DNA from: Gracilaria domingensis
Lineage: Eukaryota; Rhodophyta; Florideophyceae; Gracilariales; Gracilariaceae
Length of the DNA: 64,000 bases
NCBI GenBank assembly: GCA_022539475.1
Contig: VCMS01000067.1
Coordinates: forward strand, 62,001-126,000
Direction of reading: 5' to 3'
This document shows positions 1,821 to 44,619 of this stretch, piece by piece. The notes below the pieces were generated by a model. It searched no databases, had not been told where the DNA came from, and was given only the letters and a program-made list of their open reading frames with translations. A program made the position numbers and the translations under genes. Position 1 is the stretch's first letter, and every line of letters begins with the position of its first letter.

Positions 1821-3626
1821 TTACACGCCGGACGGCCCAGCACCTGGGGTGCCGCCGCTACCGGGAGCCCCGGAGAAGCGCTGTGCCACTATCGCTTGCA
1901 ATTCCGACTCGTCGGTCACCGTATCGGGAACGGCCACTTCCACACCTCGAAGGAAGTCGCGAATGACCGCCGCTCGCGGAGTGAGAGAGGAACTGCCGCC
2001 CCCGGCGGATGCTACGTCCTGAGCCCACGGGCCGGTCGGATCGGGATCCGCTACAGCGGGTGGGACAACAACCACGACTTCGTCGTCGTCGCCCATAGCT
2101 CCGGGCTCCGGTACCACCTTCACGCCCACTGGGCTCCCCTCATCCATTTGGCTTCCTCCCTCAGTAGGGTCATCACCGTCGTCATCCACATATACGAACC
2201 CACGCGGGTGCCCATCCGGGATATGGGGCTCCTCTCGGCGGCGACCAGCCGCCTCAGCGGGACCAATTATCTCCCAAATCCATGGGTCAAAGTATACGAA
2301 GTCGCCGGCATTGACGTTCCGTCCGGGAGAACGGTCCGACTGCCGACGAACCCCGTCGGAAACCTGACTAGCAGGCACCTCATTCCAGTCAACCTGGTCA
2401 ATGACGTCCACCAACGCGGTGGCCTCGCACGCATTGCGGACTGAGCCGAGCACCTCGGAGAGATCCAGCGCTCGGATCGCTTGCCGGATGAGCTCCGGGA
2501 TGAACCAAACTCGGTACGAATCATATGCCTCGATGAGAAGGAAAGCCGCAACGCGGACGGTCCACTCTGTTGCCAGGATGCTCCACAGGCCGTGAGGCGG
2601 ATCGTTCATGAAGTACGAGCCTATGTAAGTTAGGCAGGGCGGTAGTTCTACGTGACACCCTCGTGGGACTTCGACCGCAGGCCAGAATGACGGCAGCGGC
2701 AGGTATCGCCCAGTATGGGAGTGACGCGCAATGCGTTCCACTTCCGTGCACTGGTACGGCACCAGTACCCCGAAGCGGGAACGCCATTTCCTCTCGAATC
2801 GGAGGCCTTCATGAAATTGAGACCGTCCAGGACGGCGAAGGAACCGGAACTCGGCGCGAAGAATGGGCCGCGCCTACAGGATCAGCTCCTGCTGCGGCTG
2901 AACGGTGTCCGAATATCGGTCAATTTCGTCCAACGCGTTGGCTAGATGGTCGCCGTAGCCGACCTCGCCGAAAGTTCGGTAACGTGCCACGTCGTACTGG
3001 TACTGCGCCGGCACCGGATGTTCGTTCGGAGCTCGGAAGTGTCGCGCCTACCCAATGCGGGCCATCTCATTGCAAGCGAATTGTCTCGTCTCGTTTCGAC
3101 CTACAAACAAGCAGCTCGGTATAACCGCAACGCGGGCGATCCAGTCCCATGAACGGGTAACGTCAGCAGGAAGCCCACCAGGGAGTTGACCGTCGACAGC
3201 GTACGAGTCGACGAGCTCGGTATCCCGAACTGCTTCGGCGTCAAACCAGGGAGCCTGGGCGAAAAGGAAACTGTGCCGGTGCGGATCCCGGATGCGTAAC
3301 GCGCCTGCGGTAGGCCACCCACCCAGCGTAGCTGGCATCTCGGCGTTGAACCAATCCCATACGGGCGCGGGACCAGCCTGAGCTGGAGCGTGATCTTGTC
3401 CGGAAGAACCCGGTTGAGAGGCAGCCGCCGACTGCGGAAGGGGTACAGACCGGAACGGCGGGTTGGACACTTGCATACGTGCCGTCGAGGACGGAGGGCC
3501 GTTCGGTACGTTGGACATCGTGGGAGGGCTCGTAATGGCGAGGTTCGCTACTGACACCGGAGGTGTTGGTGGCTCCGAACAGTTCTCGGCAGACCCGTCT
3601 TGGGAGACTTCCTTATATACCTCCAT
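1821..3626 (-). pseudogene. antisense accessory ORF of gypsy element 1 (two in-frame stops)
   Basis: This minus-strand frame runs 602 codons from an ATG at 3626 to a TAA at 1821, opposite to pol, with two in-frame stops (TAG near 3047 and near 2880) and no net frameshift. It aligns end to end with the antisense ORF of element 2 (603 codons). Shared blocks are APWF, DSY, SWDW and RVAV in the N-terminal half, RPILRAEF and ERKWRSRFG in the middle, then EVPRGC, RVAAF, DRSPGR and DFVY, and a Gly/Pro/Ser-rich end (GPSGV). There is no signal peptide, membrane segment or fold that I recognise. The ATG lies 54 bp from the 3' LTR, so any promoter would be in or beside that LTR. Function unknown. Confidence 0.7.
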
Positions 3627-3666
3627 CGCGAGGCGTATCGAGCCGACGGAGTCGGTGTCTCAGGCT

Positions 3667-3679
3667 GAGAAGGGGGAGA
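3667..3679 (+). promoter_or_regulatory. polypurine tract of element 1
   Basis: The purine run gagaagggggaga directly precedes the LTR start TGTAGAGC. Plus-strand DNA priming in Ty3/gypsy elements uses such a tract. Confidence 0.8.
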
Positions 3680-4538
3680 TGTAGAGCAAAACGCCCTTTG
3701 TGGGGATGCACCGAGGTGTTTTTCATAGTTTGTTGATCCGTTACCGGCTTCGACACCTCAGGTTATGAGAGGCTACTGGGGCAGTGGCCCTATTTTGGGG
3801 TATGCCTAGGAAGGGTAGTATTTCTGCACACGTGTGCCAAGTTGGCCCGATAGCGCGGGCGCCGTGGCAAGCCTGCCACGGGGGCACACCTGTAGTGTAT
3901 TGGCCGGCATTGCCGGATAGTTAGATATTTCAATGGATATTTTCAAGTGCCGTATATAAGTGGCGGCACTTGCCGCCACTGTACGGGAAGTAAAACTCAA
4001 GGAGGCCTTTGGCTCTGATCTTCTTGCCGCTTGCGCACGGTCACAAGCCCCATCCTGGGGACTACCGCCACAATTCCGGGCTGATCAACCAACCTCCATC
4101 TCTAAGGAGTACTAATCCGTCGTCACGGCACCTTTACTACCTATTCTATTGTTTTTACTTCCGTCTTACCGCTCTTCGATACTCTGCCCTGTCATACAGG
4201 TTTGGCCCATTAGCCTCGGGACTTATTCCCGTTATCTCGATTCAGTGCTCCGCAGTGCGGCTCGCTTACTAATCTTTTGTCGTCCCATACCGTGGGGCTG
4301 GATGCCTCCACTCGCTGTGGCTCGCCGGAACCATCCGGATACCTACGCCGATTCTACCCCCTCCACCTCCGACTGCACGCCCAGATCGGGGCCACCCGGA
4401 TTTACACCCGGCTCGTGTTGGCCCTATCGGAGGGTTCTGTCACTGCGCCTACCCCTGTAGGGAGCAAGGTTCGAACACCCCTGTCGGTGCTCTTCCGCGA
4501 CGCGGCTGTTGTTTTCCCGTCACCGGGTTTGCACCACA
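3680..4538 (+). repeat. 3' LTR of gypsy element 1
   Basis: The LTR begins TGTAGAGCAAAACG immediately after the polypurine tract, the same terminal motif as the LTRs of elements 2 and 3, while the interior is unrelated to theirs. The end is placed at ...gcaccaca (4538), which is a judgement. A TATA-box-like tatataag lies at 3953-3960, followed by a perfect 10-bp stem-loop at 3959-3980 (agtggcggca/tgccgccact) that would fall near the start of the transcript. Confidence 0.65.
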
Positions 4539-5656: not shown

Positions 5657-6844
5657 ATAGTCTCAGAACCATTGTCCAATTTCTTCGTCATTGCACTCGT
5701 GTTCATCCAAAATGAGAATTACTTCTTCACACGCCCATATTACATTTAGTTAAGCTACTTTAACTTTCATGATGAGAAACTTCCTGAAATTTAGCGTCCA
5801 ATTGGCAGAGGCGGCAAAAGTACTTTTCAAAGTTTACGAAGAATAGCGCAGGTGCTGGGTTATACGACTATAAATTATAGGGCTCTGTGATGGCTAAAAC
5901 TTTATTCGTGACTAACGGACAGTTCGTCGCACAATTTGATGCTCAGCGTGGCAGTAGAGAGGTAAAAGAGTTTTTAACATGATGTTCACTTGATTTGGGG
6001 GTTTATTGTCCTTTTGGAATGATGTTTTACTGCAGATTGCGCTCAAGTTTTTCCGTGTGGCAAATTTAGTATCGCAGATTGTGATTAGAACAGATCAATA
6101 GCGCAGATTGAGATGAAAACCTTATGCAAATTGTGCTGTGGAAGCGGGGTGCGCATACTAGGTAAGAAGCGTGAATGAAGAGTCCCTATCGGAGGGAGAC
6201 GCGCTCCACAACATGGTCGTAATTGGATGTAATGAGAAGCGATTGAACTCGCATGCAATGACATAGGTTTATCTTAAAGCTACGTTTAGTGAGATAGCTT
6301 TAGGAAAACAGAGCAAGTAGCACTGTGATATCCAACAGATTTCATCTTTGCCCAATAATAATGCACTCTTAAAGCTATCTCACTAGATTTAAGCGTTCAG
6401 TCCTGAAAGGGTCAAAAAGGGCTATTTGAGTTGGCTACTGTTAACTAGCATTGTCCTACACTTATAGCGCCCTGATCCCCGTTTTGGCGGGAAAAGTCGT
6501 GCCATGGCGATTGGGGTAGCACTCCTACCCCAATCGCCATTGCACGCCAAATCCAATATAGTGCTACCGCAGCCTTCGCCACAACTCTACCGAATAATCT
6601 CCACACGAGCTCTACGTCGGCATTCAACGCCTCGCTTGCAAGAAATGTACGCACTGTTTTGCAGTGATACGGTCAAGCATTTCGTTGCGTGAACCTGCTT
6701 TCAATCTATCCGCTGCGTCTCGCAAAGATCGCCGTTCTGCGCGCCAAAAGCCCTGCAAGCACCAAAACAAGTTTTACGCAGAATACATTTGCCGTTACTT
6801 GATACTGCTTTTCCGGGTTTCTTTTCTCTTCGCTTCTGAGTGCA
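5657..6844. other. non-coding, AT-leaning stretch with two inverted repeats
   Basis: No convincing gene is visible. Two structures stand out. A 15-16 bp inverted repeat lies at 6288-6302 (agtgagatagcttta) and 6370-6384, separated by 67 bp. A tight perfect hairpin lies at 6504-6540 (16-bp stem, 5-nt loop) and extends to 6499-6545 with one mismatch. The stretch probably includes the 5' non-coding part of the hAT element downstream. Confidence 0.5.
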
Positions 6845-22614: not shown

Positions 22615-23595
22615 TGTAGAGCAAAACGTGCTCGCCCGATACACGGGGATTGTTTTCATAAACCCCTAGTAAGGATGATTCGGAGTACTCGGAAGGTATG
22701 AGTATTGGCCCGCGGATGGGATACTGTTTGGCAGTATTGAGGTACGGTACCCTGAGAGGTCGGACATGACGTGGCGCAGATGAGTATTGGTCGCGTGGAC
22801 GCGTGTGTAGGAATGGGTGTGTTCACACATGTCTTGTTACGATTGTCGGATATTTTACTGGCCGCTGCCGCCGGTTGTCACGTGCACCACGTGTATGGAC
22901 CTGCTTAGGTGTGCAATAGATTATTTAATTTAGTTTAACTAATTTATCGGTTACGATATGAGAGGTGACCTCCCGGTCACCTCCTCCTTCAGTAAAGGGT
23001 AACCGAGTTCGGCTCTGAACCAAGTTCGCCTGCGCGAAGTGTACAACTCCCTCAGGAGGGTCACCGCGTACGGTATGGATTGGATTCATCCCTCGGGATC
23101 ACTCAGGCAATACCGACCATTGTGGTCTTGCCTTCGGGCCTATTTATTCCGTGTCTTCGGACTTTCTGTTTCGTTTACTGTGCAGTTGAACTGCTTTCAC
23201 CACAATTGGTAGCGTTTCCGTCTCTGTATAGAGTTGTGCCGCGTGGGCTTAATACACATCGTCGTCTGCCGGCGCCGGGTCTGTTGCCGCTTGCCGCACG
23301 TCCGGCAGCGGGATTCCTCTCTTTTCCTCCTTTGGTTTCCTTTCCTTTTCCCCCTTTTACCTAGGGCTTACACCGCTCTATGGTACCTCCCTCCTCAACC
23401 ATTCCGTCGCTTTTCGCCGGATTCCTGGATCAGGCCCGTTCACCCCTCAACCTCCGTAGGTATATCCCGTACCACGGGCGGTCTTACACCCGCACTATCC
23501 GTGTTCGGAGGGCTCACCACTGAGTTCACCTCGTCTAGAGGGCAAGGACTCGAACGCCTTGAGAGACGATCCCATCGCTGGCGTTTTGCTCTACA
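22615..23595 (+). repeat. 5' LTR of element 2
   Basis: TGTAGAGCAAAACG ... GCTCTACA, 981 bp. It aligns over its length with 44700-45647, with substitutions and several indels. It contains a hairpin ggtgacctcccggtcacc near 22964, part of which is deleted in the 3' copy. It terminates the upstream three-exon gene. Confidence 0.9.
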
Positions 23596-23597
23596 AG

Positions 23598-26995: not shown

Positions 26996-28894
26996 GTGAA
27001 TCTAGTTAGTTCGGGCCACGAACGACCGTTCATTCCGGTTAAATCAGCGCTACCCCCTGGCACAGAACAGGCGAATCCTGTTGAGGAATTAGAGAAGTTG
27101 AATCTGGACCATGTCCCAGCGTCTCATCGCGAGAAGTTGCGAGACATGCTCAGAGAATTTACTCCCATGTGGGACGGTTCCCTTGGAACAATTGGAATTA
27201 CGGAGCACCGTATTGATCTGCTCCCAGATACTCACCCAATCGCACAACACCCGTATCGGGCAGGCCCGAAAGCGCGGGAAGAAGAAAATTCTCATGTCGA
27301 GAAGATGCTACGTGCCGACGTAATTGACCCAGCTCAGTCGTCATGGGCATCGCCCGTTGTACTTGTTCCGAAGTCGGATGGATCGTGGCGTTTTTGCATC
27401 GATTACAGGCGACTCAACGCCGTTACCATCAAAGACGTGTATCCGATTCCACGGATGGATGAGTACATCGACTCGCTGGGAAGCGCCAGAGTATTTACCG
27501 CCCTTGACGCCAATTGGGGTTACTGGCAGGTTCCAATTCGAAAGGAAGATCGCGACGAGACCGCGTTTGTATGTCACCAAGGACTGTACCGTTTCAAACG
27601 GATGCCCTTCGGGCTAACGAATGCTCCCGCTACGTTTCAGCGCGCGATTGATATTCTGTTGGCCAGGTTCAAGTGGAAGACTTGTCTTGTGTACTTGGAC
27701 AACATTGTCGTATTTTCCAACAGTATGGATGAACATATGTCTCATGTGAGGGAAGTGATGCAGGTTCTGCGTGACGCAGGTGTTACCTTGAAGCTCAAGA
27801 AATGCGAATTCTTTACCGACTCGGTGAAATACCTGGACCACATCATCCGCCGAGGGAAACTCTCGGTCGAAGAGGTAAGGGTGAAGTCGCTGAAGGAAGC
27901 GAAACATCCGACAACTCAAACGGAACTCCGATCATTTCTCGGTTTGTGTAATGTCTACCGTCGGTTCGTCTCGAATTTCGCTGATACTGCAGCTCCTTTC
28001 ATTTCTCTCCTCAGGAAAGGACAGCCAGTTAAACTGGAACCATTCGGCGATGCGGAAGCATCCGCCTTTTCGTCGTTAATCGACGCTGTTACGTCTCCGC
28101 CGATTTTGGCGTTGCCCACTCCAGGGCTTCCATATGAAGTTGGTACTGATTCCAGTGACCACCAAGTGGGGTGTGCATTGTTTCAAGTCTCGAGGGAAGG
28201 CGAGCGACGTCCAGTTGGATACTGGTCTCGTTCATTGAACGTGCATGAGCGTAATTACTCAGTCTCTGAGAAAGAGTGTCTCGCCGTCGTTTGGGCGCTG
28301 TCTACCTTAAGACCCAATCTTATGGGAACCCATTTTCAGGTACATACCGATCATTCGGCTCTCCGCTGGCTTATGGAGATCTCCGAGCCATCGGGTCGCC
28401 TTATGCGTTGGCGTCTCCGTCTATCGGAATTTGATTTTGACGTCCGGTACAAACGGGGCACCCTGAATATGCAGACTGATGCGCTTTCTCGCTTAGGAAC
28501 GTCTGGTGAAGCAGAACCTGTCGACGACGACGACATACCATGCTTCTTGGTGGAAGACTGGGAGGAAGACTCCGAAATTACGGATGACGTCTGTGAGGAT
28601 ATTCTCGCCGCAGAAACGGCCGAGCCACCGCCTGGCTCATTTGAACCCATTACCGCTGAAGAGGTAATACGTGAACAAGACGAGGATCCTTTCTGTACTC
28701 AGATAAGGGCCCGACTCAAGGGGGGATTCAAGATACCCTTTCTAACCAACGATCAGGGATTCCTTGTTAGGATTGTTGGGCCACGCCGTCAAATTGTGGT
28801 TCCACACTCCCTACAATGGAGCGTTCTCCATATATCCCACTATGCAAAGATTGGGGGACACCATGGTCGCAGGAAGTTGTATCTAACTCTCTGA
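26996..28894 (+). pseudogene. reverse transcriptase-RNase H of element 2 pol (mutated active site)
   Basis: 632 codons open between stops. Ty3-type RT motifs are clear: SWRFCIDYRRLNAVTIKDVY, FTALDANWGYW, MPFGLTNAPATFQRAID. The catalytic box reads VYLDNIVVFS where the family has YLDD, so the second catalytic Asp is Asn. RNase H follows (YEVGTDSSDHQVGCALF; the first D is changed in context relative to element 3, VDTDAS). The integrase zinc region begins at SHYAKIGGHHGRRKLYLTL and stops at a TGA (28892-28894) that element 3 reads through. Confidence 0.85.
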
Positions 28895-30457
28895 AGAGAC
28901 TTTTACTGGCCAGCTATGGCATTCGACTGCTACGCAGTACGCCGTTCATGCACGGAATGCGCCAAGAACAACGTCAAACTTTGACGAAACTCGAAGTCGA
29001 TGACGCTGTTCCCAGCCCGGGCTCCCTTGGAGTTCGTCGCTATCGACATTCTGGGCGAATTATTTCGAACCGCACGCGGTCACAAGTATCTCCTGGTTAT
29101 CACGGACAGGTTTTCGAAGTTAATGCGAACGGTTCCGTTGAAGCGGATCACTGCAGCAGCAGTTGCATAAGCATTTGTGACGCATGGGCTCTTCACTTAC
29201 GGGCCACCCGTTAATCTGCTTTCAGACAATGGCTCGCAGTTTGCGTCAAAGTTCTTTATGGACGTATGCCGTATCTTGGATGTCAAGAATTTGTTTACAA
29301 CAACCTATCATCCCCAGTGTAATGGGCAGGTAGAACGATTTAATCGAACAATGCTTAACGCATTACGATCCTATGTTGCGGATCACCCAAAGGATTGGGA
29401 CTTGTACACCGATGCTATTACGTACGCGTATAGCACCCAGGTGCATCGGGTAACGAAGCTTTCGCCGTTTGAACTCGTTCTTTCGAGGATACCGCCACCG
29501 GTAGCAATCGAATCACAACCGACGCTAGCGTCTTTCCCGTCACCACGGATGTACAAGGACACCTGGAAAAATTGGTTAACCAAGATGGTACCGGTAGCCC
29601 GGAAGGCCATGGACAAGGCACAACTTACGTACAAGCGTAATTTTGATCGCCAACTTCGCGGTACACCAGTGGTGGTAGAGCCAAACAGCTTTGTGTTCCT
29701 TTGGAAGGAGTATTACAACCCTGACAAGGAAAAGAGACATAAGCTCTTCCCCATCGCTGATGGACCGTATCGCGTCATTTCCGTCAATCCGGATACCGTC
29801 GTACTCGACATTAACGGACGTCATGAACGAATCTCGCGTGACCGCGTTGTGCCCGCCCCGATGCCACCCACCGCAACCGGGCCCACCTCAACCAATACCC
29901 AATCAGGGGATCCTCAACAGGAGGCAGAACCGTCAACAGCCGCTACACTACCGTCGCGCCCGGCGATTCTTCCGCACCCGGATCCAGGATTAATTGATCT
30001 ACCTACAGTAGGTACTTCTGACCACAGAACTACTTGGACGAATTCAAACGACTCTGCACGAGTATTTACAAGAGTAACCCCCCCACCCCATCTCCTGATG
30101 GAGCCGGTGGCGCCATCTAAGGAGGGGGAGAATGCCGCAGCTGCTGCGAATGGCATTGACGCTCCGGTGTCGCCCGGTTCCCCAACCACTGGAAATGTGA
30201 TCCACACTGACAATCCAGTCGCTCCCGAGGGAGAATCTAGCCGCACAGTTGCCTTTTCGCACCCCAAACGTGAGGACTCCGCCGTATCGGTCTCCGTTAC
30301 CACGGAACGTGCCTGTGAGAGGCGGAACGTCGCCGCAGATGCAGCTACCTATCATGGGATTGCTAACCGCTCGAAGTCGCGTAACCGCGTCGATAATGAC
30401 AGTCGAACTGTGAAGACAGTTTCCGCTGATCCGGACCAGCCGCCATACGCGGAGTAA
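28895..30457 (+). pseudogene. integrase and pol tail of element 2
   Basis: The part up to 29176 is frameshifted relative to both neighbours. From 29177 an ORF of 426 codons carries the integrase core (VNLLSDNGSQFASKF with Asp, then NGQVERFNRTM with Glu) and the C-terminal GPYRVISV/VVLDING region, followed by a Pro/Thr/Ser-rich tail. At 30117-30130 it holds an internal copy of the polypurine motif (taaggagggggaga). It ends at a TAA before the chromodomain, which lies beyond the nested element 3. Confidence 0.8.
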
Positions 30458-30966: not shown

Positions 30967-31940
30967 TGTGGGGCAAACTCGGAAGAGTGAAACCCACCAG
31001 ACTGTCCGAAGGTCCGCTCTCGTGAGAGATGGCAGACCAGTGACAGAGCCCTCTGTACCACCGTAACTCGGTTGTAAGGCCGAAGTGGCAACTGGCTATA
31101 CCTACAGAGGTGCTAGGCCACGTGGTGAGGAAACGATGAGAAACTCCAGAGATGGGGTGGTATCGGCAACGATGAAACACGACCAACGACAGGTGTAGTC
31201 CCGAGAGGGAAAGCAACAGAAAACAACAACCAAACAACAGCCACACGCGACGGGTAGGGCCTCCTCGGCACTGTGCCCGGAGCGGGGCGAGATCCTCCAA
31301 CGGTAATGCACGGGTTTCCGTAAACACGGCAAAACTCTATACAGATTCGGATCACTTCGTAATCTAGTCCTATACCTCCTCGGTACGACCCTCAGGTCCC
31401 GACATCAACGACAGATGTTCCTCAAAGGTACCGAGAGGGTAGGACCACCGTAACCAGACGTGGCTATACTCGCGAGAGTGATAACCCACGTAGGCGGTTG
31501 GCGCCAGAGCCTCACTCGTGTAGAGTCCACTCAGGAGAGCGCTACTCGACAAAGAGTTCACTTAGAAGTGCTCGGGTTGACTTTACAAAGGTGCTCGCGA
31601 CGACGAGGTCGAGCTCACCTAAGTAGGTCTAAACTAACTATGTACACGTGGTGCACACCCGCAGGGGTCCGTACACGTGGCTAGCCCAGTGTCAGGCACC
31701 TCAGGTGCACTACCTATTGTCCCGTAATATGCACACACACGGTGGTGTAGTACACGCGTCCACCTAGCGGTATTGGCCAGCAATGGCAACCCTGATTACA
31801 GGTAACTGTGGGAAAGCCATTCCAAAAGTAACCGCCAAAATTGGGTCCAACTCATAACTCTTCGAGTGCATCCTCGTATCACTCCCCTGAGTATATGAGG
31901 CGCATCATCCTGATAACCACGCAAAATGCGTTGCTCTACA
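30967..31940 (-). repeat. 3' LTR of element 3
   Basis: 974 bp; plus-strand ends are TGTGGGGCAA and GCTCTACA. It matches 40995-41966 nearly base for base; visible differences are act/acc near 31707 and a 2-base indel near 31915. Confidence 0.95.
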
Positions 31941-31954
31941 TCTCCCCCTCCTTA
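31941..31954 (-). promoter_or_regulatory. polypurine tract of element 3
   Basis: On the minus strand taaggagggggaga abuts the LTR start TGTAGAGC. The same core recurs inside pol at about 34557-34570 and 37697-37710. Confidence 0.85.
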
Positions 31955-32019
31955 GAGCCGAGAACGACTTCGAGGCTGAAGTTTTGTGCGAAACGCAAGT
32001 ACGTAAATACGTCACAATC

Positions 32020-32916
32020 ATGAGCGGTACCAACTCCTCGGTTTCTATACCTCGCAAGCGCGATACATACTCAAGCGAACAGAGTATTCAAGTATCCGAA
32101 CTCGATCACAGTACATCATCTGTCATTCCGATGAACCCGAATCAGTTTCCTCATCACCCGACCGGTCAGGCGAGCGCGTCGAACTACCCTCAGCCGGGTT
32201 CTGCGACGGCTCCACTGCCTCAGTCTCAACCGATGGTCCCGGTGAACGTTCCGTTATGGAATTCAGCGCAAGCGATGCCGCTGATGGCGAACCAAGCTGG
32301 TTGGATATCGAAGGAATCTCTCGCAGTACGCGATCCACTCCGTGATGGGTTTGCGTTCAGCCGTGCACCGTGGTTTCATCCGGTAGCTGTTAACGATGAC
32401 ACTCTCCTGGAGTCGTATGCCGAGTGGGCAGCGAACCAGCCACGGTCGATTCCAGACAGTCACCCCGTTGGGTTCATGTTCAGTGACAACAGGGTCGCCC
32501 CAGTGGATCTGGATGATCCGAACATGGATACTGGTGGAGAGGCGGCGGGAGCACTCGTCGAGATGGACCAGGAGTTGGTGAACGACCTACCGGCGGCGAA
32601 TCAGGTGTTGCACGCCAGCGGCGGGGTACCCCAGGCTCCTGTGGGTTGGAATGTTCCGACTCAAGCGAGTGTTCCGGTGGTGGGTCCGGCCCCTGTAGCG
32701 GCTACCGTTCCTTCGGTCCTTCCGGCCCCGACAGCTCCAGTCGCTCCGGGAGATTCTCCGGCGAACATCGCGATGTTGCGCGCCAGTCTCCAGAACGCTG
32801 GAATTATCGTGCCCGATCATCTCACCACTATGGCAGGGATACTGGCTTACGCCGTTCCGCACCCTTCGCAGGGTCCCTCCGGTAGCGGCGGTGCCGGTCC
32901 CTCATCGGGGGTGTAA
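32020..32916 (+). CDS. antisense accessory ORF of element 3 (open, centrally deleted)
   Basis: 298 residues on the strand opposite to gag-pol. I chose the ATG at 32020 (MSGTNSSVSIPRKRD); a TTG at 31984 extends the frame upstream. The start lies 80 bp inside the 3' LTR. The N-terminal part matches the antisense ORF of element 2: APLPQSQ, WNSAQ, GWI, RAPWFHP, ESY. The sequence then jumps to SHPVGFMFSDN, which in element 2 lies about 330 codons further on, so the conserved centre (SWDW, RPILRAEF, ERKWRSRFG) has been removed in frame. The Pro/Ala/Val-rich C-terminus ends GAGPSSGV. There are no stops. Unknown function; I see no signal peptide, membrane span or known motif. Confidence 0.6.
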   Translation: MSGTNSSVSIPRKRDTYSSEQSIQVSELDHSTSSVIPMNPNQFPHHPTGQASASNYPQPGSATAPLPQSQPMVPVNVPLWNSAQAMPLMANQAGWISKESLAVRDPLRDGFAFSRAPWFHPVAVNDDTLLESYAEWAANQPRSIPDSHPVGFMFSDNRVAPVDLDDPNMDTGGEAAGALVEMDQELVNDLPAANQVLHASGGVPQAPVGWNVPTQASVPVVGPAPVAATVPSVLPAPTAPVAPGDSPANIAMLRASLQNAGIIVPDHLTTMAGILAYAVPHPSQGPSGSGGAGPSSGV

Positions 32917-33285: not shown

Positions 33286-33915
33286 TTATCCCACCTGGGC
33301 TTGGTCCAGGTTGGACGGCAAGGCTGACCGAGTGCGACGGTGGTATGAAACGATCTTCGACCTAGGTAGGTGCTCGACCGGCTCCATGGTGTCCTCCTCG
33401 GCGGAGTAGCCATACCATCGCACTTGGTACAGTACCGTCCCATCGGGGTCTACAACATGACGTACGATACGTTCGATCACGTATTCCTGCCGGTACACCT
33501 CGGTGTTTGACTGCTCTCCTTCACCCATTGTGGTTTCGTACCTTTGAGGGTGGCGAGGTGGTGGCCGGCTAACCTCTAGAGGGGTTCCTCTTGGACTTAA
33601 CCAGTCACGACTCACTAGGAGTTCCTCGCTGCGCGACAACCACAACTTACGCCAGGAGCGTCCAATCTTCAACCTGAAAGGTTCTTCTTGAAGTACTCTC
33701 CTTCTTGAGTCTGACGAGCTTCGGCTCGTTTTGGTTGAGCTTCCGACCGTCCAACGGTAGCTTCGGGATTCTGAGCTCCCTCTTGCTATCCAGAAGGATC
33801 GTCCGTGCGACGGAGAACGGGCAGGGTCTCGCTCGTGCGCCATGGAGGCGGATTGACCAATCACGGTGCATATCGCGGCCTTCTGGTTGGCCAGGCGGTG
33901 GCACGTGTGAGCCAC
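33286..33915 (-). CDS. chromodomain end of element 3 pol
   Basis: The last ~65 residues form a chromodomain: EYVIERIVRHVVD, YQVRWYGYSAEEDT and EPVEHLPRSKI, with the aromatic residues expected for a methyl-lysine cage. The preceding ~140 residues are Arg/Ser-rich linker. The same frame carries the pol tail at 34222-34845, but stops lie between (33916-34221), so in this copy the chromodomain is no longer joined to integrase. In element 1 the linker and chromodomain form one continuous frame. Confidence 0.8.
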   Translation of the reverse strand: MAHTCHRLANQKAAICTVIGQSASMAHERDPARSPSHGRSFWIARGSSESRSYRWTVGSSTKTSRSSSDSRRRVLQEEPFRLKIGRSWRKLWLSRSEELLVSRDWLSPRGTPLEVSRPPPRHPQRYETTMGEGEQSNTEVYRQEYVIERIVRHVVDPDGTVLYQVRWYGYSAEEDTMEPVEHLPRSKIVSYHRRTRSALPSNLDQAQVG

Positions 33916-34935: not shown

Positions 34936-37611
34936 TTATTCTTTGCGGAGAAATACCATATCGTCTGGTGTGACCTTTGGTAATGGGGTCTTAACCTTCG
35001 CATCGAAGTTGCGCTTATAAGCGGCCTGCGCCTTATCCATCGCTGTGCGAGCGACCGGTACCATTTTGGTTAACCAATCCTTCCAAGCGTTCCTGTATAA
35101 CCCAACAGACGGGTACGTAGAAAGCGTTTCTTGAGCCTCGATTGCAACCGGTGGCGGTACTCTTGACAATACCAACTCAAAAGGTGCTAGCTTCGTTACC
35201 CGGTGGACTTGGGTGTTGTACGCATACGTAATAGCGTCCGTATACAAATCCCAATCCTTAGGATGATCTGCCACATAAGATCTTAATGCATTCAGCATGG
35301 TACGGTTAAATCGTTCTACCTGACCATTTGTTTGGGGGTGGTAGGTGGTCGTAAATAGATTCTTGACACTCAAGATCCGACAGACGTCCTGGAAAAACTT
35401 CGACGTGAACTGTGAACCGTTATCTGATAATAGATGAACCGGTGGACCGTACACAAAGACCCAGTGGGTGACAAAAGCTTGTGCAACCACGGTGGCCGTA
35501 ATCCGTTTCAGCGGGACTGTCCGTACCAACTTAGAGAACCGATCGGTGATAACCAGAAGGTATCGATTACCTCTTGCGGTTCTGATCAATTCACCTAAGA
35601 TATCGATAGCGATAAACTCCAAAGGAGACCGTGCTGGGAACAGCGTTAACTTCTTCGAGTACTTACGAAGTTTCACGTTATTCTTAGCGCACTCGGTGCA
35701 AGAGCGTCGTACTGCGTAGCAGTCCAATGCCATTGACGGCCAGTAAAAATCTCTACGCAGGGTCAAGTATAGTTTTCGACCTCCTGGGTGGGCTCCTACC
35801 TTCACATAGTGTGTCATGACCAACACACGGTTTTGCAGCGAGTATGGGACCACAATTTGGGTATACGCTTCGACCAACCTAACCAGGTACCCCTGATCGT
35901 TAACCTGAAAAGGTATACGATCTCCTCCATTGAGACGAGCGCGAATTTGCGTACAAAACTCATCCGTTTGCTGTTCTCGGATCATCTCCTCGGGAGTGAT
36001 GGGTACAAAAGATCCAGTCAAGGGATCCAACTTCTCAGAAGTGAGCAGGATGTCGTCACAGATGTCATCCGACAAATATTCGACCCAACCTGCTTGTTCT
36101 TCCACCATAAAGCATGGTATGTCCAGATCGTCAACTGGTGCCGCTTCTGCATTTGTTCCCAAGCGGGAGAGTGCATCTGCCTGCAGATTCAACGTTCCTT
36201 TTTTGTACATAACTGTGAAATCGAACTCCGATAACCTCAAGCGCCAACGCATCAAGCGTCCTGATGGTTCCGAGATTTCCATGAGCCATCGGAGAGATGA
36301 GTGGTCCGTATGTACCGTAGAATGGTTGCCCATAAGATATGGCCTCAGTGTAGTTAGAGCCCATACAACGGCTAAGCACTCTTTCTCCGAAACTGAGTAG
36401 TTACGTTCGTGTACGTTCAAGGATCGCGACCAGTATCCAATTGGATGTCTCACGCCGTCTTCCGTGACCTGAAACAGGGCGCAACCAACCTGGTGTGCAC
36501 TGGCGTCAGTGTCTACTTCGAATGGAAGTCCTAGCTTAGGCAAAGCCAAGATTGGCGGTGACGTCACTGCGTCAATTAATGCCGAAAAGGCAGACGCTTC
36601 CGCGTCGCCTAGGGGTTCTAGTTGAACTGGTTGACCTTTTCTCAAAAGGTGGTTAAGGGCGGTCGCAATATCTGCGAAGTTCGGGACAAAACGCCGATAT
36701 ACATTACAAAGACCCAGAAAACTGCGGAGTTCCGTTTGTGTCGTAGGGTGTTTCGCTTCCTTCAGCGACTTCACGCGAACTGCGTCAACTGAGAGCTGTC
36801 CAGGTCGAATGATATGCCCTAGGTATTTGACAGAATCTGTGAAGAACTGGCACTTCTTGAGTTTCAGCGTAATGCCCGCGTCTCTGAGGACTCTCATGAC
36901 GTCCCGGACGTGTGTTAAGTGGTCATCAAGGTTATCGGAGAACACGATGATATCGTCAAGATATACCAAGCAGGTCTTCCACTTGAATCGAGCCAAGAGG
37001 ATATCGATAGCACGTTGAAACGTAGCCGGTGCGTTGGTTAATCCGAACGGCATTCGTTTAAACCGGTACAAACCTTGGTGGCACACAAAAGCAGTTTTGT
37101 CCTTATCCTTTTCACGGATCGGAACTTTCCAATATCCCCAATTGGCATCCAAGGCGGTGAACACTGTAGCACTCCCAAGCGAGTCAATGTATTCGTCCAT
37201 CCTGGGTATGGGATAAACGTCTTTGACGGTGACCGAATTTAGACGACGGTAATCAATACAGAATCGCCATGATCCGTCCGCTTTTGGAACTAGCACCACG
37301 GGTGAGGCCCAAGCGGATTGAGCCGCCTCCGCCTCTATGACGCCAGCGCGTAACATCTTCTCAACCTGAGATTGCTCTTCTTCCCTAGCTTTGGGACCAG
37401 CCCGGTATGGGTGTTGGGAAATGGGGCTAGTACCTGGAAGTAGGTCAATACGGTGTTCCGTGATTCCAATTGTCCCGAGGGATCCATCCCACATGGGTGT
37501 GAATTCCCTCAACATTTCTCTTAGCTTACCTCTATGAGATTCAGGTACATGATCAAAATTCAACTGTTCCAGTTCCTTGACAGGGTCTGTATCTTCCGTT
37601 CCTGGTGGCAA
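34936..37611 (-). CDS. reverse transcriptase-RNase H-integrase of element 3
   Basis: 891 codons. RT: SWRFCIDYRRLNSVTVKDVY (~114), FTALDANWGYW (~151), MPFGLTNAPATFQRAID (~187) and an intact YLDD at residues 217-220. RNase H starts near VDTDASAHQVGCALF (~370) and includes SVSEKECLAVVWAL and VHTDHSSLRWL. Integrase: a zinc-binding H-H-C-C region (THYVKVGAHPG ... CTECAKNN), then the DDE core FIAIDILG, HLLSDNGSQF, NGQVERFNRTM. The enzymes copy the element RNA and insert the DNA. The frame continues upstream of 37611 and overlaps the protease ORF. The two are linked by a one-base slip in a G-run (minus-strand ggaggggga) near 37700. The ORF ends at a nonsense TAA. Confidence 0.92.
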   Translation of the reverse strand: MPPGTEDTDPVKELEQLNFDHVPESHRGKLREMLREFTPMWDGSLGTIGITEHRIDLLPGTSPISQHPYRAGPKAREEEQSQVEKMLRAGVIEAEAAQSAWASPVVLVPKADGSWRFCIDYRRLNSVTVKDVYPIPRMDEYIDSLGSATVFTALDANWGYWKVPIREKDKDKTAFVCHQGLYRFKRMPFGLTNAPATFQRAIDILLARFKWKTCLVYLDDIIVFSDNLDDHLTHVRDVMRVLRDAGITLKLKKCQFFTDSVKYLGHIIRPGQLSVDAVRVKSLKEAKHPTTQTELRSFLGLCNVYRRFVPNFADIATALNHLLRKGQPVQLEPLGDAEASAFSALIDAVTSPPILALPKLGLPFEVDTDASAHQVGCALFQVTEDGVRHPIGYWSRSLNVHERNYSVSEKECLAVVWALTTLRPYLMGNHSTVHTDHSSLRWLMEISEPSGRLMRWRLRLSEFDFTVMYKKGTLNLQADALSRLGTNAEAAPVDDLDIPCFMVEEQAGWVEYLSDDICDDILLTSEKLDPLTGSFVPITPEEMIREQQTDEFCTQIRARLNGGDRIPFQVNDQGYLVRLVEAYTQIVVPYSLQNRVLVMTHYVKVGAHPGGRKLYLTLRRDFYWPSMALDCYAVRRSCTECAKNNVKLRKYSKKLTLFPARSPLEFIAIDILGELIRTARGNRYLLVITDRFSKLVRTVPLKRITATVVAQAFVTHWVFVYGPPVHLLSDNGSQFTSKFFQDVCRILSVKNLFTTTYHPQTNGQVERFNRTMLNALRSYVADHPKDWDLYTDAITYAYNTQVHRVTKLAPFELVLSRVPPPVAIEAQETLSTYPSVGLYRNAWKDWLTKMVPVARTAMDKAQAAYKRNFDAKVKTPLPKVTPDDMVFLRKE

Positions 37612-38663
37612 CGCTTTACCCTCGGTGGGTGCCAGCGATTCGGTAACTTCGCTCTCCGGGGTATCCGATGCGGTAAAAGCGGTTTCCGCTGATCCTCCCC
37701 CTCCTTAGCATCGGTTATACCGAGAACATCCGCAACGGGTATCTTCGTCGGTACGATAGCAGCAGGGTGTGGGAGAGTGGTACCAAGGATTTGGTTTTTA
37801 GCTAACCACTGTCGGGTTGTGCCAAAGTTGGCGACCAAAACTCTGAATGGCTTGTCGGGTTCCACCGAGATTACTCCGTTCGCCAAAGCGAGTTGCTTCT
37901 GATCATACAATGATGGCAATGGTTGTACCACACGTAGACCAGACTGCTTAGTAGTTATGGTGACCCAAACTTGGGATTGCGCAGGGATTGCGATGGCATG
38001 AGCCACATGGAGCTTAGATGATACCGGGTCGACGGTTGGAACTTCCTGTGCAGCAGGGAGCGGGACGCGCTTGCGTGTAGCTCTCTTTAGCGGTTTCCTT
38101 ACAATCGGTATTTCGGAACCATCATCCATGGTAACAACTCGAGCTCGAGGTCGAATCGCTTCAACAAAACGATCACAAAAGTCACAACCGAGTATCACCG
38201 GTGCGGCAATGCTTTTGCAAACCATGAAATCCACTTTAACCATACAGGTTCCTAATCGTACCATGAGAGGTATGTACCCAAGAGTACGCAACGGGTTATT
38301 GTTGGCATCCGCGATATCCAAACCTGGACCATGACGAATTTCATCCCGTAGCGCGGGTGGCACCAACTCAAGGTGAATCAGGTTCGGTGCAGCTCCTGTA
38401 TCCAACACAGACAACTGTCGAACCATGAACTGGTTAGACAAGCCAAGATCGGCATAAACTTTGTAGTTTCTCTTGGCCATCACAAGAACTCTTTCCGGAA
38501 TACGGAAATTACGGGACCGTATCCACGGACGACGTAGAACCGAAAGGTGTTCTGAGCTCACATCAGTTGTAGCCGCTATCCTTGAAAGGATTCTAACAGC
38601 TGGGGAGCGAAGCTGTGACGCCTCGGGCGCCTTTAACTTCGGCTCGGAAGGCGCCCCTCCCAT
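37560..38663 (-). CDS. aspartic protease region of element 3 pol
   Basis: 367 codons. The retropepsin active site is intact: RQLSVLDTGAAPNLIH. The region after ILGCDFCDRFVEAIRPR matches element 2. The C-terminal ~35 residues are out of frame, because the frame slips at the purine run near 37700; the alternative frame gives a sensible linker leading into LPPGTEDTDP of the RT ORF. Element 2 needs no shift here, so this is a mutation rather than programmed recoding. It follows gag after 17 bases, in a different frame. Confidence 0.85.
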   Translation of the reverse strand: MGGAPSEPKLKAPEASQLRSPAVRILSRIAATTDVSSEHLSVLRRPWIRSRNFRIPERVLVMAKRNYKVYADLGLSNQFMVRQLSVLDTGAAPNLIHLELVPPALRDEIRHGPGLDIADANNNPLRTLGYIPLMVRLGTCMVKVDFMVCKSIAAPVILGCDFCDRFVEAIRPRARVVTMDDGSEIPIVRKPLKRATRKRVPLPAAQEVPTVDPVSSKLHVAHAIAIPAQSQVWVTITTKQSGLRVVQPLPSLYDQKQLALANGVISVEPDKPFRVLVANFGTTRQWLAKNQILGTTLPHPAAIVPTKIPVADVLGITDAKEGEDQRKPLLPHRIPRRAKLPNRWHPPRVKRCHQERKIQTLSRNWNS

Positions 38664-38680
38664 AGGGGAAACTCCCGAAG

Positions 38681-40819
38681 TCAGTTTTTCTGAACGGGGC
38701 TCACCGAATTCGGTGCGTGAACTCCGTTCGGGGGGCCTAACTGAACCCCATGCGTGGGTACTTCGCCTTGAACCTGGTTCGAAGGTGCCTGTGCCGGAAC
38801 GGAGGGCTGAGCATAGACCGGAACCGGTAATCCCAGTTCAGCTCTGGCCTTATCATATTCCTTTCGTGGAACAGATTCCTTTTCCTCGGGCGTGAGGGCG
38901 TCGTAATACGCAATGATTTTCGGCCTGTGCGACGGCGGAAATACGCACTGCGTCGATACGTGACCTGGAAGGTAGCACTGGTAACATATGACCGAGGCCG
39001 GTTTGTCGCGAGGGCGATTGTCCACTCGACGTTGTAATGCTGTGTCCTTCCACCCTGGACGGTTCAGACGCGACGAATTGTTAGCGTAAGGCAGCGGGGC
39101 TGCAGGCACCCGGACACCTTGGGCATACAATGCGGGGTCTTCTTCCGTGCTCGGAATCGAGGTTGACGGCAGGTCGGTATATCCGTAAGAATCGGGGTTA
39201 CTTCCGATGAAGTGGACGTTATCAGCATCACCGACAGCGGTTTCACGTCGCAAAACCGACATTGATGGTGACGAACTCTCCGCGAGTAGCGCTTTCGAGC
39301 GGCGCTGCCCCGGGTTGCGGGCTCGATACGTCTCTCCTTCCGCCTGGGCGTAATAGACCAACTCTAGGTACGTCATTCGGCGTTTTTCCTCGCGTCGGCG
39401 AGCGACCAACGACCGAATGGTGGGGTCCAAACCATCAACAAACATGGTACACCGCTCCCGTGCGGAATACACATTACCACATCGGTGAAACGCTTTGTTC
39501 AACCGCGTTGAATAAACCGTTTCAGATTCTCCACTCTTCTGTCTAGTGTCGCGAACAGCAAGAGTAGCACTGTAAATCGCGTTGGAAGTCGCGTACGACC
39601 TGAGAAGGTAGTTCACGGCTTCCGGCCAACACGTGACTCCTCCTTCCGAGGCTCTCGAGGTTCCTCGAACTGAGTTGTACTGATCTTCCGCAGTCCCTGT
39701 TAGGAAGTACGGCAGTGCCACATATGCCTGTGCTTCACTCATACCGAGTATATCGGCCTCCTGGACGAACCTGGCAAGGAAATCCAAGATAAGGATAGGA
39801 TCTGTCCCCGAGAACGTCCTTGTTTCAAGGGTAACATTCAACCTTCGAATGTAGTCCTTCACCTTACCGGTTCCTCGCGAGGAGCGATTCGAAGTAACAT
39901 CTTCCAACCGATAATAGCGGTACGACAACAGCTTTGTGTAGAGCGGGTCCGTCGGCTTTAACTCTTTGAGTCCCAAGTGGCGCCGTCCTTTCACGCGTGA
40001 TCTCATCACTGCCTGAGTAGACTGCGTCGCTTTCGACCGTGTCGAACGTGACCTATGACGGTTGTCATCACTATCAGATGAATCTGACGAACTGTCTTCA
40101 GTCATGCCGCTCGAGTCAGAGCGCGATGAATCCGAATCATAGTGAACTCGTTTTGGGTGTCGACGTTTCTGCTTCACCGAACGATGGTCTTCATCCGCAG
40201 ATGGATTTCCTTGAGGAAACTGTGCGTCCACAGCTTCATCCATACGGATTGTATCCTCCAGCGTTTCCAAGCGCGAACGAATTCGACCGATATCGGTGCG
40301 CATTTTCTCGACAAATGCCCGGTACTCCGTGACGAAGACGTCTGGGGTACCCAGATTTTCCATAATGGAATTCACGTCCCTTCTCAGAAGACGTAAGTCT
40401 CCTGAGACATCCCTCACCTGGGTATTATCAACCTGCGTCCTCAACGAGGTAACATCCTGTAGGAGTTCCACCTGAGCAGCGTGATTAATATCCAAGCGGG
40501 ATTCCAACCTAGCCAACTCGGCTACGGTAGCAGCGTTAGGATTAACCATGGATGGTGTCTCAACGACGGGTTGAGCAGAACCCACGTTTTCCTTAGGTGC
40601 TTCCGTAGCTGAGCGCGTTCTCCGGGGGCGGGGTACGACCTCAAGAGGTTGCGCCTCATCTGGGATAGACCGGGACGTCGGTGCAACGGGTGGAACCGCA
40701 GCTGACGACCGCGCTGAACCAGCTCGAGAACCTCGAGGCGGTTGCGGCACACTGGAAACCAGTAAGCAATCTGATCCAGATGATCCAGTTAAACTGGTAC
40801 ACGAGTCTCCAAAGAACAA
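38681..40819 (-). CDS. gag polyprotein of element 3
   Basis: 712 codons, uninterrupted. There is an N-terminal Pro/Ala/Ser-rich part, a coiled-coil-like stretch (LARLESRLDINHAAQVELLQ), a Ser/Asp/Arg-rich segment, and a capsid-like core (HLGLKELKPTDPLYTKLLSY, DPILILDFLARFVQEADILG, CTMFVDGLDPTIRSLVARR). A CCHC zinc knuckle near the end (CYQCYLPGHVSTQC) binds genomic RNA. Start choice is uncertain: the frame opens at a TTG (40819), there is no ATG in the leader, and the first in-frame ATG is MVNPNAATVAEL at about residue 91. Element 2 has an ATG further upstream at the position where this copy has GTG. Confidence 0.88.
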   Translation of the reverse strand: MFFGDSCTSLTGSSGSDCLLVSSVPQPPRGSRAGSARSSAAVPPVAPTSRSIPDEAQPLEVVPRPRRTRSATEAPKENVGSAQPVVETPSMVNPNAATVAELARLESRLDINHAAQVELLQDVTSLRTQVDNTQVRDVSGDLRLLRRDVNSIMENLGTPDVFVTEYRAFVEKMRTDIGRIRSRLETLEDTIRMDEAVDAQFPQGNPSADEDHRSVKQKRRHPKRVHYDSDSSRSDSSGMTEDSSSDSSDSDDNRHRSRSTRSKATQSTQAVMRSRVKGRRHLGLKELKPTDPLYTKLLSYRYYRLEDVTSNRSSRGTGKVKDYIRRLNVTLETRTFSGTDPILILDFLARFVQEADILGMSEAQAYVALPYFLTGTAEDQYNSVRGTSRASEGGVTCWPEAVNYLLRSYATSNAIYSATLAVRDTRQKSGESETVYSTRLNKAFHRCGNVYSARERCTMFVDGLDPTIRSLVARRREEKRRMTYLELVYYAQAEGETYRARNPGQRRSKALLAESSSPSMSVLRRETAVGDADNVHFIGSNPDSYGYTDLPSTSIPSTEEDPALYAQGVRVPAAPLPYANNSSRLNRPGWKDTALQRRVDNRPRDKPASVICYQCYLPGHVSTQCVFPPSHRPKIIAYYDALTPEEKESVPRKEYDKARAELGLPVPVYAQPSVPAQAPSNQVQGEVPTHGVQLGPPNGVHAPNSVSPVQKN

Positions 40820-40979
40820 GAAAACTCAATAAACCTTCTCGGTAAACCACCACGTCAGCGGTTGACGTTCAAAAATTGTCAACCTCCAAAACTCTAAAGA
40901 GTCCTCTGATCGTTTTCAGAAAACGGTGATCCGTCAACAATCAAGTCAATTCCACGACAGTGACCTAAAACGGTTCTAA

Positions 40980-40991: not shown

Positions 40992-40994
40992 CTT

Positions 40995-41966
40995 TGTGGG
41001 GCAAACTCGGAAGAGTGAAACCCACCAGACTGTCCGAAGGTCCGCTCTCGTGAGAGATGGCAGACCAGTGACAGAGCCCTCTGTACCACCGTAACTCGGT
41101 TGTAAGGCCGAAGTGGCAACTGGCTATACCTACAGAGGTGCTAGGCCACGTGGTGAGGAAACGATGAGAAACTCCAGAGATGGGGTGGTATCGGCAACGA
41201 TGAAACACGACCAACGACAGGTGTAGTCCCGAGAGGGAAAGCAACAGAAAACAACAACCAAACAACAGCCACACGCGACGGGTAGGGCCTCCTCGGCACT
41301 GTGCCCGGAGCGGGGCGAGATCCTCCAACGGTAATGCACGGGTTTCCGTAAACACGGCAAAACTCTATACAGATTCGGATCACTTCGTAATCTAGTCCTA
41401 TACCTCCTCGGTACGACCCTCAGGTCCCGACATCAACGACAGATGTTCCTCAAAGGTACCGAGAGGGTAGGACCACCGTAACCAGACGTGGCTATACTCG
41501 CGAGAGTGATAACCCACGTAGGCGGTTGGCGCCAGAGCCTCACTCGTGTAGAGTCCACTCAGGAGAGCGCTACTCGACAAAGAGTTCACTTAGAAGTGCT
41601 CGGGTTGACTTTACAAAGGTGCTCGCGACGACGAGGTCGAGCTCACCTAAGTAGGTCTAAACTAACTATGTACACGTGGTGCACACCCGCAGGGGTCCGT
41701 ACACGTGGCTAGCCCAGTGTCAGGCACCTCAGGTGCACCACCTATTGTCCCGTAATATGCACACACACGGTGGTGTAGTACACGCGTCCACCTAGCGGTA
41801 TTGGCCAGCAATGGCAACCCTGATTACAGGTAACTGTGGGAAAGCCATTCCAAAAGTAACCGCCAAAATTGGGTCCAACTCATAACTCTTCGAGTGCATC
41901 CTCGTATCACTCCCCTGAGTATATGAGGCGCATCATCGATAACCACGCAAAATGCGTTGCTCTACA
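40995..41966 (-). repeat. 5' LTR of element 3
   Basis: 972 bp, nearly identical to 30967-31940. In minus orientation it starts TGTAGAGCAACGC and ends TTGCCCCACA. Confidence 0.95.
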
Positions 41967-41971
41967 TTGGA
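41967..41971. repeat. target-site duplication of element 3, right copy
   Basis: ttgga, matching 30962-30966. Confidence 0.92.
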
Positions 41972-42415: not shown

Positions 42416-42790
42416 CAGTATCACTGTGCCGCGAGGTGAACCGACGGGTCCACTTGTGGGAGAATAATTGATGGTATTACCAAGAAGTTTGGGTTGTTCC
42501 TACGGAAGGAAGTATCGAAGGGATGAAAGAAGAAAGATGAGTTCCGTTTAACGGACGCCGATTTATCGGAAAGAAGCGAACTACCGTCTAACGGTCCATG
42601 TGAACATGTCGTGAAGCTACACGCGTAATGGAGAATCGTATTGGAACGATGGTGCGCCAAAGGCACTGAACCGTAATCCGTTTATGAAAGAACTGATATC
42701 GAAGTCGATTTTATTCTAAGGAGAAGTTGTACCGCTAGCTATTGCGGAGTGCGTTGGTCGCAGAGCCTACCACAGCCCATCATGGAGGGA
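42416..42790. repeat. cluster of short hairpins (element 2)
   Basis: Small palindromes between the chromodomain stop and the antisense ORF stop: ccgtttaacgg (near 42546), ccgatttatcgg (near 42559), ccgtctaacgg (near 42585) and ccgctagctattgcgg (near 42731). Position and style match elements 1 and 3, with different loop sequences. Confidence 0.7.
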
Positions 42791-42810
42791 ACCCACCGCT
42801 GGGGTCACTG

Positions 42811-44619
42811 CTATCCTGTCGAAGGACCGGCATCTCCAGGGTTGGACTGCCCTGCTTGGGGAGGCTGACTCGCGAAAGCCTGCGCGCCCAATGCCAACAG
42901 CTGGCCGAGGTCGTACATATCCGGTGGAACCGGCACCCGAAGTCCGAGGAGGTTGTTGCGCATCGCTACCACGCGAGGGTCAATATTCCCCTGCGAAGGA
43001 CCCACGCCCCAACCGATAGGAGCAACTGGCGCAGCCGCCCATCCGACAACCGGAATTCCTGCGGAAGCCGCCGACGGGCCTCCCGTTGCCGGGTCTTCCA
43101 CAGTATCATCCACCATTGTATCGTTCTCCTCTGCTACGGAGTAATAGTTGTCGGAAAACATGAACCCAATAGGGTGATCGCTCGGAACCACTCGAGGAAG
43201 TCCGCGTAGGACGAGAGCCCGCTCCTTCGGGACGGTCACGGACTCCCAGGGATCGTAATACACGAAGTCACTGACACCCGGATGTCTTCGCCCTGGAGAA
43301 CGGTCGTAGTGCGAACGAGTGCCCCTGGGGTTGTTTTCCGCCCGAACGGTACTCTAATCAATGGAATCGATGAGATCGATAAGGCTGATAACCTCGCTGA
43401 CGTTTTCGTCCGAACCGAGCGCGGTGTATAAGTCCAGTGATCTAATCACATTCCGTAACCTCGGAGGCAAATACCAAACACGGTTCCGGTCGTATGCTTC
43501 CCATAGCATAAACGCGGCAACGCGAGCGGCCTATTCGGCGATGAAGAGCATCCAATACTCCTAGTACGTATTCAAAATCATGCGTGCACCCACATAGGAG
43601 ATGCACGGAGAGAATTCCGGGAAACACCCGCGTGGTACCTCATAGTGAGCCTACCACGATGGGAGTGGAGCGAATCGACCGGCTAGTGCGTCCGGTCGCA
43701 AACGTTCAACCTCCATATTCTCGTGCGGGATCTGATACCCGAACCGGGATCGCCATTTGCGTTCGTTTCGCAGTCGGTCGAAGAAGCTTCCCTCTCCCGA
43801 AGGGCGATGCAGATACTGAAACTCCGCTCGCAGGATAGGCCTGTTGAACAGGAGAATGTCCGCCGGCATCGACTCCGGGAAGTGTTCCGCCGCCTGGAAT
43901 TCCGCGAGGTTCGCTCCATACTTGACCTCTCCGTAAGTTCGGAACCGGGAAAGGTCGAACCCGTAGGACTCCGGAATCCTCTCGGGGAACGAGGCTCGGT
44001 CCTTCCGAAAGTATGCCAATCGCGCCATAGCCGCGCGCGCTTCATCCAGCGTTTCGTATCCACGGCCGCGCCGTTTTCGTGACAACACGTGAGGTGCGAC
44101 CGCCACGCGGAGTCTCCAATCCCAGGAATCCACCATATCTCGGTGCAGGCTGCCAGGCACCATACCGTTCTCGGTGTATGAATCCATCAACGCACTGTTG
44201 CGAACCGCTGTCGGGTGAAACCAGGGCGCTCTGGAATAGGCCCAGCTTCCTCCGGTAGTCGGGTCTTGAACAAGGAGCGATTCACGCGCTATCCAGCCAG
44301 CTGGAGTCGCCAGCAAGGGCACCACCTGAGCGGAATTCCACGCCGCGACGTCGACCGGGTTCGGTATAGCTGTGTGATGTTGACTCTGAGGCAGAGGAGC
44401 TGAAGCAAAAACGCCGAGATACCCTGTCGCAGGAGTTGCGGGACCGGAAACGTTCGGAGCCCCGGCTTGAGAATGCTGCTCGTTGCCCTGGTGAGGGTTC
44501 ATCGAATCGTCGATCGCAGAAGAAACTTCAAGTACTGAATCGTCTGAGTGCAGAGAAGTTGAGTGCGCTTGCGCGTGTGTCTCGTTGTGAAGAGGAACCG
44601 GAATCTCGGATATTTCCAT
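42811..44619 (-). pseudogene. antisense accessory ORF of element 2 (in-frame stops)
   Basis: 603 codons in one frame from the ATG at 44619 (MEISEIPVPLHNETH) to a TAG at 42811, with four in-frame stops, all between about 43350 and 43650, and no net frameshift. Conserved with element 1 along its length: RAPWFHP, SWDWRLRVAV, RPILRAEF, ERKWRSRFG, EVPRGC, ARVAAFM, DRSPGR, DFVYYDPWE and a GPSTG end. With element 3 it shares the two ends only (WNSAQ, GWIA, then HPIGFMFSDN). The ATG lies 80 bp from the 3' LTR. I cannot assign a fold or function. Decay is consistent with the age of element 2. Confidence 0.7.

Follow-up and report, generated by a model that had tools for sequence, protein, structure and literature searches.

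The 64-kb window analysed here (the whole stretch from position 62,001 to 126,000 of contig VCMS01000067.1; 51% G+C), taken from the 77.9-Mb assembly of 680 contigs of the red alga Gracilaria domingensis, holds three Ty3/gypsy long terminal repeat (LTR) retrotransposons, each with an open reading frame (ORF) on the strand opposite to gag-pol. Element 3 (minus strand), a chromodomain gypsy element, is nested in the older element 2 (plus strand), and element 1 enters the window from its left edge; they represent families 1, 2 and 3, respectively. The original prediction, made from the letters of this stretch, had placed the three antisense ORFs between pol and the 3' LTR and taken them for a genuine accessory gene. 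All three were found at the predicted positions, and our analysis sustains that reading: the ORF is in all likelihood a genuine third gene of a chromodomain-bearing Ty3/gypsy clade, as supported by purifying selection on its product, its fixed place and its presence in copies whose pol is open. Of the three outcomes that the original prediction had named as refuting it (dN/dS near 1, conservation due to the sense strand, absence from most intact copies), none was obtained.

The antisense ORFs of elements 1 and 2 each span a single frame disrupted by nonsense changes only (two and four internal stops, respectively, and no frameshift), and the order of the conserved protein blocks is retained, both as anticipated. 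Compared with an open relative, the copy in element 3 has a gap of 957 nt that keeps the frame and lies between two occurrences of the 8-mer TATGCCGA; its 298-codon ORF is a deleted copy and not a short version of the gene. Open copies in the genome have 599–617 codons (599–601 residues in family 1, 604 in family 2 and 617 in family 3); the G+C content of the antisense ORF in the window is 58–62%. A full-length open ORF is found in 11 of 21 separate loci sampled for family 1, in 1/7 of family 2 and in 4/8 of family 3, one of each duplicate pair being set aside. For family 3, a translated search of the genome scored at least 71 ORF copies, 51 of them without a stop in the match. The genome searches scored the best candidates only, so that all copy counts are lower bounds and are biased towards better-kept copies. 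Note that two pairs of loci lying on different contigs (L031/L032 and L013/L014) are 99.97–99.98% alike over their whole length, flanks included, which suggests duplicated or uncollapsed stretches of the assembly; the members of each pair have identical lesions, and each pair was counted once.

The open copies encode a protein of about 600 residues that is under purifying selection now or was until recently. Indeed, the ratio of nonsynonymous to synonymous substitution rates (dN/dS), obtained by counting (Nei–Gojobori) on pairs that share copies and are thus not independent, is well below 1: it lies between 0.1 and 0.25 in 26 of the 33 computable within-family pairs of open copies. In family 1, for which eight of the 11 open copies were used and three omitted, 27 of 28 pairs were computable (the remaining one has no synonymous change) and gave 0.06–0.40, except for one pair with three changes (0.68); the four open copies of family 3 (six pairs) gave 0.09–0.36. 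A Fisher test on six chosen pairs returned p values from 2e-3 to 3e-13. Family 2, most copies of which are broken, provides an internal control in the direction expected for dying copies, with ratios of 0.43–0.93 in the pairs that differ. The core of the protein is more constrained than its C-terminal tail in four within-family pairs (core 0.05–0.21). Between families, the proportions of nonsynonymous and synonymous differences (pN and pS) are 0.38–0.43 and 0.69–0.78, the synonymous sites being near saturation; the family 3 protein shares 44–51% identity with those of families 1 and 2, and the LTRs align over the first 14 bases only (families 1 and 2) or over a few short stretches.

This constraint is specific to the antisense frame, at the third positions of which the changes concentrate (e.g. 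16/13/56 across the three codon positions). Stop codons occur at 8 to 40 positions in every one of the remaining five frames, as counted in nine pairs of open copies. A low ratio is seen in a single sense frame, which shares the wobble base of the antisense frame; since it carries 13–40 stop positions in these nine pairs, it cannot code, which excludes a constraint on the sense strand as the explanation of the conservation.

The ORF is tightly linked to pol. At least 56 of the 71 ORF copies of family 3 have an integrase match within 12 kb, on the opposite strand in 56/56 cases and at 2.0–2.1 kb in 52; this cross-match relied on the best 100 of 125 integrase matches, and the other 15 ORF copies have no partner among the matches listed. 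To look at the question from the side of pol, we picked from the 125 integrase matches the family 3 copies with a frame of at least 1,500 codons and no stop in the match, leaving out three with internal stops and one of another family (78% identity). All 19 copies thus retained carry the antisense ORF. Twelve were read from the list of ORF matches, ten without a stop (eight covering residues 1–617, one starting at residue 2 and one at residue 40) and two with a stop; the remaining seven, which were fetched, all carry the ORF, broken in six and undecided in one because of a run of N. Three further families, represented by one copy each, have an antisense ORF (open frames of 651, 703 and 721 residues) opposite an integrase and a chromodomain-like match. 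The antisense ORF therefore occupies the same place in six families, with the 3' LTR seen for families 1–3 and the pol side for the other three.

A search of 5.8 billion proteins in three rounds returned 16 relatives (12, then three and one new; rounds 2 and 3 scored the 7,997 and 7,999 candidates sharing most words). The first 12 are 31–45% identical to the family 3 query, and two of the relatives are the Gracilariopsis chorda proteins BWQ96_10156 and BWQ96_03215. The tree places family 1 beside a G. chorda protein (support 100/100) and family 2 beside another relative (100/99), which implies that, barring horizontal transfer, the split of the families predates that of family 1 from its relative in G. 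chorda. Besides the initial methionine, 15 columns are invariant (five R, five E, two G and one each of F, P and D). Two structural models, built with 15 and 16 sequences, have a mean predicted local distance difference test score (pLDDT) of 72 and 73, with about 90 over a core of about 380 residues; the predicted fold comprises a disordered N-terminal tail, a mainly helical core, a disordered linker and two C-terminal helices. The part that follows the core is acidic in the three families of the window (isoelectric point 4.1) and basic in relatives P0004 and P0014.

Hidden Markov model and structure searches matched no known domain or fold in the databases searched (Pfam, PDB and fold libraries). 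The antisense frames of the window had no Pfam match at E ≤ 1, and the best Pfam match of 15 aligned members (12 relatives and three genome copies), searched up to E 5, was to an unrelated family (E 0.022); we therefore rejected a known Pfam domain as the identity of the protein. This also applies to TRP28 (PF04195), which did not match any of the 15 members at E ≤ 5 in a search with HMMER only. PDB sequences gave no match to the antisense protein, and neither model matched the libraries of solved structures; the one model searched against viral models matched none of them. The protein may thus have an undescribed fold, a lack of match not being proof. An envelope-like protein was rejected too: such a gene would lie in sense after pol, whereas all 56 listed ORF–integrase pairs are on opposite strands, and no membrane span was recognised in the three families of the window, where the highest hydropathy over 19 residues is 1.3–1.5. 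Values above 1.65 were reached by two of the 16 relatives (P0004, 1.86; P0013, 2.15).

The layout of the three elements is given in Table 1. The LTRs start with TGTAGAGC, purine tracts (AAGGAGGGGGAGA and similar) directly precede the 3' LTR, and the likely primer site TGGTCTCCCGAC follows the 5' LTR. The LTRs of element 3 (974 and 972 bp) are 99.7% alike, and the element is flanked by the 5-bp target duplication TCCAA. Those of element 2 are 83% alike, and no clear target duplication was found in the window sequence flanking it; accordingly, element 2 may be old, or may have arisen by recombination between two elements.

Table 1. Features of the three gypsy elements in the window.
Feature	Position	Strand	Remarks
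Antisense ORF of element 1 (family 1)	1821..3626	-	601 codons plus stop; 2 internal stops
Partial 3' LTR of element 1	3680..4538	+	starts TGTAGAGC; 53 nt from ATG; outer end not found
5' LTR of element 2 (family 2)	22615..23595	+	LTR pair comparison
pol pieces of element 2 (reverse transcriptase, RNase H, integrase)	26996..30457	+	interrupted frame; domain matches
3' LTR of element 3 (family 3)	30967..31940	-	LTR pair comparison; presumed site of antisense promoter (inferred)
Antisense ORF of element 3	32020..32916	+	open, 298 codons; 957 nt lost in frame
Chromodomain PF00385, C-terminal end of element 3 pol	33334..33483	-	E 9.6e-10; strand opposite to antisense ORF
pol of element 3 (reverse transcriptase, RNase H, integrase)	34936..37704	-	domain matches
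gag-like ORF of element 3	38681..40825	-	assigned by position; no significant Pfam match
5' LTR of element 3	40995..41966	-	LTR pair comparison
Antisense ORF of element 2	42811..44619	-	602 codons plus stop; 4 internal stops
Polypurine tract of element 2	44687..44699	+	within the 80-nt gap from ATG to 3' LTR; direct from sequence
3' LTR of element 2	44700..45647	+	LTR pair comparison; presumed site of antisense promoter (inferred)

The window holds other mobile sequences and further ORFs. A second gypsy-type element lies in pieces at 60454–63389 (a gag-like ORF, assigned by position, and reverse transcriptase/RNase H matches with E down to 8e-18); the self-comparison of the window revealed no similarity of these pieces to elements 1–3. 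A long hAT-type transposase-like ORF with DUF659 and a hAT dimerisation region is found at 6803–9313, a fragment of a DDE_Tnp_4 transposase at 55638–56531, and, at 51249–54600, an M1 aminopeptidase-like ORF next to an ORF with ankyrin repeats, the two sharing a strand and lying in overlapping frames.

How the gene would be expressed is suggested by the position of its start. The antisense ATG is separated from the 3' LTR by 53, 80 and 79 nt in elements 1, 2 and 3, respectively; since it is so close and the gap holds the polypurine tract, the antisense promoter is probably located in the 3' LTR. In family 3, the antisense frame is open for 43 codons upstream from the ATG, into the LTR (31891–32019). 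That the protein is or was under selection implies transcription of the antisense gene, at present or in the past: the mRNA would start in the 3' LTR and converge on pol, and the protein would be translated from its first ATG.

As to its role, we tentatively propose, while giving the idea somewhat less than an even chance, that the protein would be a nuclear accessory regulator, with the RNA, DNA or chromatin of the element itself as its target, and capable of acting in trans. Such a regulator would be comparable to Grande GENE23 or to retroviral antisense proteins, and an antisense transcript convergent with gag-pol would also tune sense expression. Alternatively, the protein could be a structural or replicative partner, present in the particle or in the reverse transcription or integration complex rather than controlling expression, and serving for example in nuclear entry or target choice beside the chromodomain. 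A role of this kind, which we hold to be rather unlikely, would agree with a protein conserved about like gag, with its folded core rich in invariant charged residues and with the presence of the ORF in all 19 open-pol copies examined. However, particle components normally derive from the sense RNA, so that a separately timed antisense gene would fit regulation better, and no domain match was obtained.

Some retroviral accessory proteins counter host restriction, and the algal protein might likewise protect the element by blocking its silencing or some other restriction imposed by the host. Sense and antisense RNA overlapping over 1.8 kb would feed RNA interference, in which case a suppressor encoded by the element itself would be sensible, and the C-terminal tail is, as seen above, more variable than the core; yet no positive selection was detected by counting, the core is constrained in the same four pairs, and no Pfam match to a known suppressor was obtained, which makes counter-defence an unlikely role. 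Still further down, the conserved feature could be the antisense RNA, forming self-limiting double-stranded RNA, with the open frame as a by-product. The layout does predict a convergent overlap with the full-length sense RNA, and self-regulating antisense RNAs are discussed in PMC7264820; however, selection acts on amino acids, as the third-position excess and the low dN/dS attest, and the LTRs are hardly alignable between families, so that this explanation is highly improbable, and as the sole one it is refuted by the codon pattern. Finally, long frames do occur on both strands of the window and the ORF is G+C-rich, but a chance frame or a by-product of sense-strand coding has a negligible probability, being refuted by the dN/dS values, by the stop positions in the five other frames and by relatives recognisable in other genomes.

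Several observations weigh against the third gene, or against the stronger versions of it. First, the ORF match is free of stops in only ten of the 19 copies with an open pol, in eight of these over the whole length. Second, elements 2 and 3 are 43% identical in the antisense protein, 79% in pol and 51–55% in gag: the antisense gene changes at a pace close to that of gag and above that of pol. Third, the relatives in other species are known as protein sequences alone, the placement beside pol being seen in this genome only. Fourth, the antisense transcript, the protein and the promoter are all deduced from DNA, and since no match points to any activity, the regulatory role proposed above is an analogy. 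Fifth, among the broken copies of family 1 (11 loci, ten after one duplicate was set aside), three pairs have a lesion in common, while their ORFs show differences at 86–109 other sites. Either the same change has arisen twice, or copies with a broken gene may still be copied; the latter argues for a gene that is dispensable in cis. In family 3, by contrast, an alignment of nine frame-broken copies shows one length change in each of eight, always at a different place (the ninth holds N), and copies similar in ORF length proved to differ in their lesion; some of these length changes may be assembly errors.

The copying of elements that lack a working gene would fit a protein that acts in trans or is not strictly needed. 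The boldest form of the third-gene reading is an ambisense retrotransposon lineage, whose third gene, transcribed against gag-pol from the 3' LTR, would be needed in trans if the element is to transpose successfully, would be older than the split of the families and of at least two host species, and would encode a fold absent from solved structures. The shared lesions of family 1 lower the odds of this form, which we consider doubtful.

Antisense genes of plant LTR retrotransposons have been noted for decades, and their function is not known. That a distinct protein family under purifying selection occupies this place in another eukaryotic group suggests repeated invention or deep inheritance of such genes, and their function becomes testable in several systems. 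It also matters for annotation, since relatives enter the databases labelled as hypothetical proteins of the host, as is the case for the two from G. chorda. In the literature searched, we found no earlier report of the present antisense gene, which adds a red-algal case to the few described from plants and fungi.

Extra ORFs of plant chromoviruses are reportedly rare and located on the 5' side (Steinbauerova et al. 2011). The original prediction had assigned the elements to a chromovirus clade: the chromodomain (PF00385) is indeed present at the C-terminal end of pol, with similar stretches in one copy each of the three further families, and is the sole basis of the label, chromodomain gypsy elements outside chromoviruses being described in Ectocarpus (PMC12477816). 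Human T-cell leukemia virus (HTLV) has an antisense promoter inside its 3' LTR (PMC7264820); an antisense gene is common to HTLV-1, with HBZ, and to the algal elements, the layout of which suggests the same promoter place, a comparison that concerns mechanism only. The original prediction had mentioned antisense ORFs in a few plant gypsy lineages, which is correct for plants, but they extend beyond them, since the fungal element Boty also has an additional antisense ORF (PMC7264820), the brtn gene of Botrytis cinerea (Zhao et al. 2011, cited by title in PMC8365987). Boty brtn and the algal gene are both additional antisense genes of LTR retrotransposons outside plants, a likeness of description.

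The closest parallel is with the aORF-3R genes of plant Ty3/gypsy elements (Grande gene23, RIRE2, Retand and PvRetro13), which are described as lying in antisense orientation between pol and the 3' LTR, being found in most copies, being conserved like the other proteins of the element and having an unknown function (PMC7264820, PMC11963269). Like them, the algal gene sits antisense to gag-pol in the interval from pol to the 3' LTR, is found in most copies of its family (19 of the 19 picked in family 3) and is conserved like other element proteins, as judged from elements 2 and 3. Unlike them, its product has no Pfam match, PF04195 (TRP28) included, and its host is a red alga. Retand in particular belongs to a non-chromovirus lineage (PMC11963269), whereas the elements described here bear a chromodomain and their antisense protein lacks the TRP28 match that marks Retand. 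The antisense gene of G. domingensis agrees with the aORF-3R class in position but not with Retand in TRP28, and defines a new protein family in an arrangement of a known kind.

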